Source: Pseudodesulfovibrio portus
GTDB taxonomy: Bacteria; Desulfobacterota; Desulfovibrionia; Desulfovibrionales; Desulfovibrionaceae
NCBI RefSeq assembly: GCF_026000375.1
Contig: NZ_AP026708.1
Span: 1,118,501 to 1,182,500 of the forward strand
Length of the DNA: 64,000 bases
Direction: 5' to 3'
Both the position numbers and the translations under genes were made by a program. Positions 49,632 to 51,617 of this stretch are shown piece by piece. Under the pieces are notes generated by a model. The model was not told where the DNA came from. It saw only the letters and a list, made by a program, of their open reading frames with translations, and did no database searches. How positions within the stretch are numbered: position 1 is the stretch's first letter; every line of letters begins with the position of its first letter.

Positions 49632-50153
49632 ATGCAATACGATGACAACCCGGTTTTCCAGGCCATCTATACCCGCAGGTCCATTCGCAAGTACACGGAC
49701 GAGCCCGTCACCCGGGACGAGCTGACCGCCATCCTCGATGCGGGACGGTGGGCGCCCAGCGGCCTGAACAACCAGCCGTGGCGGTTCCTGGTGATCACCC
49801 GCGACGATGAACGGCACGAGAAGCTCGCCGAATGCACCAAGTACGCGCACATCGTCCGCGGCTCCCAGGCCTGCATCGCGGTCCTGCTCGAAAAAGAGGC
49901 CATGTACAGCGAGATGAAGGACCACCAGGGTGCCGGGGCATGCATCCAGAACATGCTGCTGGCCGCCCATGCCCTGGGCATAGGCTCGGTCTGGATCGGC
50001 CAGATCGTCAACGACCAGGCCGCATCCCTGGGCGCGCTCTCCCTTTCCGAAAACCAATACGAACTCCAGGCGGTCATTGCCCTGGGCCGTCCGGCCCAGA
50101 AGGGCGGCTCCAGCCGCAAGGAGCTTGCCGAACTCATGCTGGAGACATTCTGA
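49632..50153 (+). CDS. Nitroreductase-family flavoprotein
   Basis: 173 residues. RRSIRKYTDEPVTRDELTAILDAGRWAPSG (in two parts) at the start and GIGSVWIGQI in the middle are marks of FMN-dependent nitroreductases. The substrate is unknown. CAGGAGG precedes ATG 49632. Its stop overlaps the next start (TGATG), so it begins a four- or five-gene operon. Confidence 0.9.
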   Translation: MQYDDNPVFQAIYTRRSIRKYTDEPVTRDELTAILDAGRWAPSGLNNQPWRFLVITRDDERHEKLAECTKYAHIVRGSQACIAVLLEKEAMYSEMKDHQGAGACIQNMLLAAHALGIGSVWIGQIVNDQAASLGALSLSENQYELQAVIALGRPAQKGGSSRKELAELMLETF

Positions 50154-50773
50154 TGACCATCAAAGACTACCAACTGGGACCGCTCCAGACCAACTGCTAC
50201 CTGCTGGCCGGGGAGACCGAAGCCGTGGCCATCGATCCGGGCGGCGATCCGGCACCGGTCCTGGCCTTCCTCGAGAAAAGCGGCCTGACCCTGACGCACA
50301 TCCTGAACACCCACCTCCACTTCGACCACACGGCGGGCAACAAGGCCCTGTCCGACGCCACGGGCGCGCCGGTGCTCGGCAACAAACGCGACGCCTATCT
50401 CCTGGACACATGGCTCGGCAAGGGCGGGGACATGGGGCTGCCGCTCATCGACCCCTTCGAGTGGGACAACCTGGAACCGGGCGCACGGGCGTTCGCCGGC
50501 CTGGAATGCCGCATCCTGCACACGCCGGGGCACTCCGAAGGCAGCCTGACGTTCTACTTCCCCGAGGCCAAGGCGGCCTTTGTGGGCGACTTGATCTTCT
50601 ACCGCTCCATCGGTCGAACGGACTTCCCGGGCGGAGACATGGACGTGCTCAAGCGGTCCGTCAAGGAACACATCTTCACCCTGCCCGACGAGACCGTGAT
50701 CCTGTCCGGCCACGGGCCGGAAACCACGGTGGGCGACGAGAAGAACCACAACCCCTTTTTCGGAGGATTCTGA
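50153..50773 (+). CDS. Metallo-beta-lactamase-fold hydrolase (glyoxalase II-like)
   Basis: 206 residues. The metal motif THLHFDH (about residues 53-59), HTPGHSEGS, GDLIF and the final GHG supply the two-metal ligands of the glyoxalase II-like group. The N-terminus LGPLQTNCYLLAGETEAVAIDPGG is the usual first strand. Translation is coupled to the nitroreductase and to the following selenoprotein by TGATG junctions. Confidence 0.9.
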   Translation: MTIKDYQLGPLQTNCYLLAGETEAVAIDPGGDPAPVLAFLEKSGLTLTHILNTHLHFDHTAGNKALSDATGAPVLGNKRDAYLLDTWLGKGGDMGLPLIDPFEWDNLEPGARAFAGLECRILHTPGHSEGSLTFYFPEAKAAFVGDLIFYRSIGRTDFPGGDMDVLKRSVKEHIFTLPDETVILSGHGPETTVGDEKNHNPFFGGF

Positions 50774-51012
50774 TGGCCGAAGACGTGACCATCGACATCC
50801 GCGACAAGTGCTGAGGCGTCGGGCTGGAGGTAGGTTGGTACCTCCGTTTCGCCAAGACGGACCGCGTCACGGCCCTGGTGTCCACCAAGGGCGCGGCTCA
50901 GGTGCGCCATGAGGAACACATCTTTCCGGACTGGGAATTCGACATTGAAGAGATGGACGACCACGCACGAGCGGTCATGACCCGCAGAAAACCGTTGTTC
51001 GACAAGGAGTGA
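50773..51012 (+). CDS. Putative small selenoprotein with Cys-Sec motif (UGA read-through)
   Basis: 79 codons from ATG 50773, whose A is the last base of the preceding stop (TGATG). Codon 14 is TGA (50812-50814), in the context RDKC-Sec-GVGLEVG. The frame stays open for 65 more codons to TGA 51010-51012. The downstream part is an ordinary, balanced protein: GWYLRFAKTDRVTALVS, IFPDWEFDIEEMDD, MTRRKPLFDKE. A perfect hairpin follows the UGA at the SECIS distance. The next gene's ribosome site lies in the last codons of this frame, which argues that ribosomes reach its end. Cys13-Sec14 suggests a redox active site. I recognise no family. Confidence 0.78.
50812..50845 (+). promoter_or_regulatory. 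SECIS-like hairpin of the small selenoprotein
   Basis: After UGA 50812-50814, GGAGGTA (50826-50832) and TACCTCC (50839-50845) form a perfect 7-bp stem with loop GGTTGG. The apical loop begins 19 nt after the UGA and starts with GG, both within the rules known for bacterial SECIS elements. Confidence 0.75.
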
Positions 51013-51014
51013 AC

Positions 51015-51617
51015 GTGGACGAAGCAGTGATTTTCGCCTGCAGCCACAGAAGAGACGGCAACACGGACCACGCGGCCCGGCTGATGGCCGAGGGGGTGAA
51101 TGTTGCGGGCGGCCATGCCGAGATCATCTACCTCCGCAACCACAAGGTCCTGCCCTGCCTGGCCTGCGGGTACTGCTGCGAAGCCGTCGACCGCCGGGGG
51201 CGCGAGCGGTGCGTGCTCGGCGCAAAGGACGAGGCCTTCGAGCTGTTCGCGAAACTGTTCTCGGCCCGGACCGTCCTGTTCGCCTCGCCCATCTACTTCT
51301 ACCACCTGCCCTCCCTGTTCAAGACCTGGATCGACCGCAGCCAGCAATTCTGGACGGCCCGACAGACCGGCGAACCGTGGGTGGCGGACCTGCCCCGGCG
51401 CACGGCCCATGCGGTGCTGGCGGCCGGGCGGCCCGAGGGGGCCAGGCTCTTCGAAGGCGCCGCCCTGACCCTCAAGTATTTCCTGCACAACTTCAACATG
51501 ACCCTGGCCGAACCGCTCCTGCTGCGGGGCATTGACGACCGAACCGATCTGGCCGACCGTTCCGAACTGGAAGAACGGATCGTGGAACTCGGCAAGACGG
51601 CATGGGCATCGGCCTGA
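51015..51617 (+). CDS. Flavodoxin-fold iron-sulfur flavoprotein-like NAD(P)H reductase
   Basis: 200 residues. The flavodoxin-like start (VIFACSHRRDGNTDHAARLM) is followed by LPCLACGYCCEAVDRRGRERC, a CX2CX2C cluster plus a later Cys as in iron-sulfur flavoproteins (Isf family). ASPIYFYHLPSLFKTWIDR is the FMN-binding region. GTG 51015 is preferred because AAGGAG (51004-51009) is 5 bp away; GTG 51009 is the alternative. Its ribosome site overlaps the end of the selenoprotein frame. A redox partnership with that protein is plausible. Confidence 0.85.
   Translation: MDEAVIFACSHRRDGNTDHAARLMAEGVNVAGGHAEIIYLRNHKVLPCLACGYCCEAVDRRGRERCVLGAKDEAFELFAKLFSARTVLFASPIYFYHLPSLFKTWIDRSQQFWTARQTGEPWVADLPRRTAHAVLAAGRPEGARLFEGAALTLKYFLHNFNMTLAEPLLLRGIDDRTDLADRSELEERIVELGKTAWASA

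Follow-up and report, generated by a model that had tools for sequence, protein, structure and literature searches.

A probable Cys-Sec selenoprotein with a predicted TusA-like fold in a conserved gene cassette of the Desulfovibrionales

Relation to described sulfur carriers and selenoproteins

Proteins of the TusA/SirA type (PF01206) are sulfur carriers in tRNA 2-thiolation and related relays. Adjacent Cys and Sec residues (CU motif) are found in the selenoproteins SaoC, SaoL, HgcA, MbdU and KCU-star, the last of which (DUF466) has its Sec at the very C-terminus. YedF (TIGR03527) joins a SirA-like to a DsrE-like domain and, according to the accessible parts of PMC5322559 and PMC2432076, has a link to selenium. 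Here we analyzed a 79-codon frame with an internal UGA in a window of 64,000 nucleotides (the whole stretch of DNA under study) from Pseudodesulfovibrio portus. The predicted protein resembles TusA and SirA in length, in its modeled beta-alpha-beta-alpha-beta-beta order, in the spacing D..R.....C and in a Sec14 that hhalign puts in register with their carrier Cys. It differs from them in having CUGVG in place of CPxP, Sec in place of Cys and conserved Trp and Arg residues of its own. With YedF it would share a SirA-like domain and a selenium link. Unlike the two-domain YedF with its CPXP motif, it has a single domain and Sec, and a selD neighbour is absent. The adjacent Cys-Sec pair is shared with the CU-motif proteins, yet none of the NCBIfam models for SaoC, SaoL, HgcA, MbdU and KCU-star matched the 65 members of the family at E <= 1. 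KCU-star (NF033934) thus gave no match, and here 65 codons follow the Sec.

The sequence-only reading had recognised no family and had called the protein undescribed. Both statements held in our searches: neither the window protein nor its 65 homologues had a significant match in Pfam or NCBIfam (release 20; best E 0.077), and no corresponding entry was recognised in the selenoprotein catalogue tables of 2026 and 2022. By names, motifs and domain identifiers in the accessible parts of these sources, the family is missing from the 2026 review table (119 entries), from the 2022 table and from the nine new deep-Sep families. The families of Haft and co-workers were compared through the review table and NCBIfam. 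Literature searches, conducted mostly outside the subscription literature, retrieved no description of the family; the literature basis was the accessible text of PMC13188914, PMC12013277, PMC9312934, PMC2432076, PMC5322559, PMC11124144, PMC1242214, PMC1914089 and PMC5029168. Two Pfam candidates, among other weak matches, were rejected. DUF6578 matched 9 of the 65 members with a best E of 0.023, the window protein scoring 15.1 bits where the cut-off is 27.8, and UL148 matched one member weakly (E 0.0058). A sequence search of the PDB returned matches at E 0.39-0.40 only. From sequence comparison this appears to be a new selenoprotein family, and to the first reading we would add a predicted TusA/SirA-type fold, a family of Cys paralogues and the occurrence of the operon across the order. 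As a whole, the explanation towards which we lean, on balance, is a selenoprotein of TusA/SirA-type fold that would act as a sulfane-sulfur carrier.

Table 1. Features of the cassette and of the paralogue loci. Positions are those of the window unless a locus is named.
Feature	Position	Strand	Basis or remark
Nitroreductase-family flavoprotein gene, first of cassette	49632..50153	+	PF00881, 8.6e-30; conserved order
MBL-fold metallo-hydrolase gene (glyoxalase II-like), stop overlapping the selenoprotein start	50153..50773	+	PF00753, 1e-32
Shine-Dalgarno-like GGAGG of the selenoprotein gene	50762..50766	+	inferred from motif
Probable TusA-like selenoprotein gene, 79 aa, Sec14, stop TGA 51010-51012	50773..51012	+	frame reading, homologues, purifying selection
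In-frame UGA, probable Sec14, directly after Cys13	50812..50814	+	same column in 65/65 alignment rows and 16/16 named-species loci
SECIS-type hairpin, 7 bp plus U-G pair (50825/50846), loop GGTTGG 50833-50838	50826..50845	+	read, folding, comparison
FMN_red-type flavoprotein gene with Cys cluster; alternative start GTG 51009	51015..51617	+	PF03358, 4.9e-14
Cys paralogue loci behind mnmE	L125:5007-5276; also L118-L128, L130-L134, L138, L140-L143		

The UGA-containing frame and the hairpin behind it

Direct reading confirmed the layout that had been proposed for the gene. Its ATG (50773) shares bases with the stop of the gene before it (TGATG, 50771-50775), codon 14 is a UGA (50812-50814) directly after Cys13 (TGC), and 65 open codons follow up to the TGA at 51010-51012. 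The last codons hold the ribosome site of the downstream gene (AAGGAG, 51004-51009), ahead of its GTG at 51015. A gene caller that halts at the UGA would report a 13-codon fragment only.

A profile search of 348 Desulfovibrionales genomes matched 168, spread over 34 of 59 genera and four families of this one order. In-frame TGA rows were obtained for 161 of the matching genomes, three gave rows that lacked it (G503, G645 and G648, the latter two showing the Cys paralogue alone) and four had no printed row. A six-frame search of a set of relatives matched 69 of 98 genomes, 67 of them with the in-frame TGA. Matches in G084 and G092 were discarded as unrelated open frames, and the profile search added G067, bringing the relatives with the gene to 68 of 98. 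Sampling across the phylum gave 6 matching genomes of 395, all from the family to which P. portus itself belongs. Scanning named-species genomes with one 8-residue motif, by which divergent members would be missed, gave 16 loci, including Pseudodesulfovibrio, Nitratidesulfovibrio and Desulfovibrio, with UGA in 16 of 16; 15 are titled Desulfovibrionaceae or its genera and one 'Proteobacteria bacterium'. No match to the selenoprotein was found by tblastn against plasmids.

In the alignment of 65 rows, D8, C13, U14 and L24 are invariant and R10, W22, R25, W54 and R71 nearly so. Left out of this alignment were L065, which had no tblastn match, the unrelated L068 and L070, and L036 because of its premature TAA. 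Across the wider context sample of 81 loci, which comprise 73 distinct sequences around the UGA and include some genomes twice, the vicinal Cys-Sec pair was kept in 81 of 81. Outside the 65-row alignment, one further locus (L215, in G633) carries Gly instead of Cys at position 13, with the UGA retained. The Sec gene of G023 (L036) contains a premature TAA, and the G020 copy (L048) is divergent and its hairpin weak; both may be decaying.

Behind the UGA, the frame is open across 55 codons in 65 of 65 homologues (65 of 66 when L036 is counted), whereas the other two frames stay open in 2 and 12 of the 65. For 29 sequences of the genus (406 pairs), pN/pS as a ratio of means was 0.373 after the UGA versus 1.157 in the +1 frame. 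These sequence comparisons indicate purifying selection on the codons that follow the UGA. The sequence-only reading had staked its proposal on conservation of this part in relatives, and the proposal survived, the exceptions being the premature stop in G023 and the replaced Sec in G503. It had also advised a search of Desulfovibrionales genomes for homologues with Sec or with Cys, and both kinds were found.

The first reading had also described a perfect 7-bp hairpin with a GGTTGG loop, starting 19 nt after the UGA. The hairpin and its loop are as described (GGAGGTA / GGTTGG / TACCTCC); it is the loop that begins at the 19th base, the stem beginning already at the 12th. We applied the bacterial SECIS rules as set out in the accessible text of PMC13188914, section 5: a loop 16-37 nt after the UGA, G among its first two bases, and -7.5 kcal/mol or lower, the energy being that of the hairpin by itself. 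In agreement with the earlier claim, 61 of 73 distinct sequences had such a hairpin, a count that averaged 9.2 and never exceeded 17 over 200 synonymous shuffles. At a threshold of -5 kcal/mol the count was 66 of 73 versus a shuffle mean of 19.8 (maximum 28-30), with 7 of 73 falling short. The loop started 17-19 nt past the UGA in 69 of 73.

Over 63 distinct rows, 89.9% of the stem cells pair. Two-sided stem changes numbered 23 cells versus 7.1 in shuffled alignments, with 0 of 500 shuffles as high, and a slid-partner control gave 0-10. Another measure of covariation over these rows, further pair types, was not above shuffles. Codon choice is unusual as well: 43 of the 63 distinct sequences have GTA or ATA as the codon for residue 20, and in eight genes of the window GTA makes up 3.3% of Val codons and ATA 3.1% of Ile codons. 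The single-sequence fold of 81 nt had ordinary stability (z 0.36), and RNAalifold returned no consensus structure for the 63-row alignment. The case for the hairpin lies in its conserved place, its energy and the codon choice, not in the stability of the whole region. Of the SECIS scoring that had been suggested, the published hairpin rules gave a positive outcome, and an Rfam scan gave no SECIS model match.

SelA, SelB, SelD and a tRNA-Sec (83.6 bits) were found in the genome, and the SelD match (G000:C1:2044643-2045572) itself has an in-frame TGA. Among the relatives, the selenoprotein gene occurs in 65 of 88 with SelB above the cut-off versus 3 of 10 without (Fisher p 0.008); the three genomes with the gene and SelB not above the cut-off (G007, G029, G048) are drafts of 82-95% completeness. 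The features by which selenoproteins are usually recognised computationally are thus present: a conserved UGA, a SECIS-type hairpin, a Sec/Cys pair and the Sec machinery. Read from the sequence, it is nearly certain that UGA codon 14 is decoded as selenocysteine via the hairpin just behind it and that the selenoprotein is real. An ordinary stop, with the following 65 codons a chance frame or a pseudogene, would agree with the premature TAA in G023. We rejected this explanation as almost certainly wrong, as the frame is conserved and under purifying selection beyond the UGA; the hairpin, the Cys pairs and the Sec-less orthologue also speak against it.

Predicted fold and the Cys paralogue family

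We modeled the protein with AlphaFold2 from 17 sequences, substituting C for U. The model (pLDDT 91.8, pTM 0.80) has strands at residues 5-9, 31-36, 54-60 and 65-71 and helices at 16-26 and 41-50. Going by this model, the selenoprotein is very probably a small beta-alpha-beta-alpha-beta-beta protein of TusA/SirA topology, in which Sec would replace the TusA carrier Cys ahead of helix 1. Among the best 50 of 1021 Foldseek matches in the PDB were the TusA chains 3lvj_C (0.60/0.61) and 3lvk_B (0.65/0.67) and the SirA-like 3hz7 (TM 0.63/0.67). TusA and SirA-like chains aligned over 72-76 columns at TM 0.60-0.67. Within the same 50, none had E <= 0.001 and other alpha/beta folds scored alongside TusA; the first match was SpoVS at TM 0.37. 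Profile comparison by hhalign with 21 TusA sequences fell short of significance, at 5.2% with the Sec profile and 16.4% with the Cys profile, but still placed the Sec/Cys column on the TusA cysteine. PF01206 was not among the Pfam matches of the 65 members at E <= 1, and the CPxP motif is absent. Given the weak hhalign result and the lack of a Foldseek match at E <= 0.001, we call the protein TusA-like, not TusA.

A Cys paralogue family was found in 78 of 348 Desulfovibrionales genomes, including that of P. portus (G000:C1:2853127-2853357, locus L125, outside the window). It is a clear homologue within the same bacterial order: hhalign between the Sec and Cys family profiles gave 98.2% (E 3.7e-14), and Cys at the Sec column is invariant in 29 rows. 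In contrast to the selenoprotein, it has a CGLVP motif, is free of UGA and often linked to mnmE, and the position before the invariant Cys is variable. The first Cys is kept in 11 of 40 paralogue loci, indicating that the dyad is not fixed across the superfamily. Scans of seven paralogue members gave nothing in Pfam and nothing significant in NCBIfam. In 18 of 35 distinct genomes the paralogue sits immediately 3' of mnmE, identified by eye, which encodes the GTPase of tRNA U34 modification. This placement suggests that the paralogue may serve tRNA thiolation as TusA does.

A different Cys form was seen in G503 (L207 / L226), where an orthologue within the operon has CPC in place of CU and Sec is gone. 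In a tree of 39 of the 81 Sec loci, 15 of the 40 Cys loci and L207, built on few columns and with many open forks, the Sec and Cys families split at 100/99. The Sec-less L207 nests beside the Sec form of a genus-mate at 100/98, and so reads as a secondary loss of Sec.

The gene cassette and possible roles of the Cys-Sec dyad

The neighbours had been named as a nitroreductase, a hydrolase and a flavoprotein, and the domain matches (PF00881, PF00753, PF03358) bear this out. The flavoprotein, from its Cys pattern, is presumably Isf-like with an Fe-S cluster. TGATG stop/start overlaps chain the nitroreductase, hydrolase and selenoprotein genes (50151-50155 and 50771-50775), so that the four genes between 49632 and 51617 look like one transcription unit.

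Of the 81 loci of the context sample, 79 have a flavoprotein match within 119 nt downstream and 74 a hydrolase match within 300 nt upstream. In four loci from one family of the order (L030, L037, L038, L069) the hydrolase lies ~1.1 kb upstream; the intervening gap in L037 contains an open frame of 358 aa. No hydrolase match was found at L051. In L062 (G039) and L064 (G043) the selenoprotein gene stands apart from the cassette, and in these genomes the hydrolase and flavoprotein genes remain adjacent on another contig. G030, the sole member of the genus (of 36) with no selenoprotein match, also had no flavoprotein match at 1e-10; its hydrolase match is 43% identical only, and the orthologous hydrolase is missing. 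The nitroreductase-hydrolase-flavoprotein cassette also occurs free of the selenoprotein, as read directly in G061 (L225), and coordinates place hydrolase and flavoprotein at most 160 nt apart in each of the 8 family f5 genomes covered. Such cassettes indicate that the selenoprotein is dispensable to its neighbours and refines, rather than defines, their pathway.

A role in redox chemistry, suggested by the sequence-only reading, is plausible. We propose that the Sec14 selenolate would accept sulfane sulfur from a persulfide or polysulfide (selenium is possible as well). Release would then proceed via a selenenylsulfide between Cys13 and Sec14, which the adjacent flavoprotein would reduce, with the MBL hydrolase and the nitroreductase-type flavoprotein acting in the same pathway. 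We rank a reductively discharged carrier first among the readings on the grounds of the carrier position of Sec, the adjoining Cys and the flavoproteins encoded alongside. Still, that the dyad is a carrier of sulfane sulfur (or selenium) discharged in this way is offered tentatively, the sulfur load, the electron donor and the roles of the partners being inferred.

Two flavoprotein-type genes in the cassette would also suit a thiol-disulfide redox protein or a peroxide or electrophile reductase that uses a TusA-like scaffold and a flavoprotein reductase, as in a thioredoxin reductase-like couple, and handles no sulfane sulfur. KCUG is similar to the GCUG at the end of mammalian thioredoxin reductase. 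Against this, the fold and a Sec column in register with the TusA Cys point to sulfur handling, and no thioredoxin-like fold appeared in the best 50 of 1021 PDB matches; we find this alternative unlikely.

Somewhat less likely again is that the dyad binds soft metals (Hg, Cu, Ag and others) or organometals for chaperoning or detoxification rather than sulfur transfer. The vicinal Cys-Sec in 81 of 81 loci fits such binding, as do the CU-motif selenoproteins with metal-related names in the 2026 catalogue (SaoL, HgcA, MbdU); in the accessible text of the 2026 review, ~20% of families have predicted binding capacity, with ~70% of the contacts being metal. However, the neighbours are a nitroreductase homologue, a hydrolase and a flavoprotein, no metal gene was recognised by eye among the adjoining frames of the window, and the Cys paralogue retains its first Cys in a minority of loci (11/40).

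A further alternative is selenium delivery, in which a TusA/YedF-like carrier would hand selenide equivalents to SelD. In other bacteria SirA-like proteins (YedF) are tied to selD by gene neighbourhood, according to the accessible parts of PMC2432076 and PMC5322559. Here, SelA, SelB and SelD are encoded elsewhere in the genome, and 23 of 88 relatives with SelB above the cut-off have no copy of the gene, which appears unnecessary for Sec synthesis. We consider selenium delivery improbable.

Returning to the sulfane-sulfur carrier, a broader view, held with slightly more reserve than the carrier mechanism itself, is that the Desulfovibrionales may possess a Sec-based sulfane-sulfur carrier/reductase module specific to the order, beside a second, Cys-based carrier tied to mnmE. 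If the fold reading is true, this would be a new placement of Sec. Should Sec indeed replace the carrier Cys of a TusA-type protein, selenium would have a new use in a sulfur relay, as opposed to peroxidase, hydrogenase or formate dehydrogenase chemistry. Research on the host organisms concerns corrosion, mercury methylation and sulfur cycling. To their known selenoproteome a widespread family would be added, and the conserved four-gene cassette makes its function directly testable.
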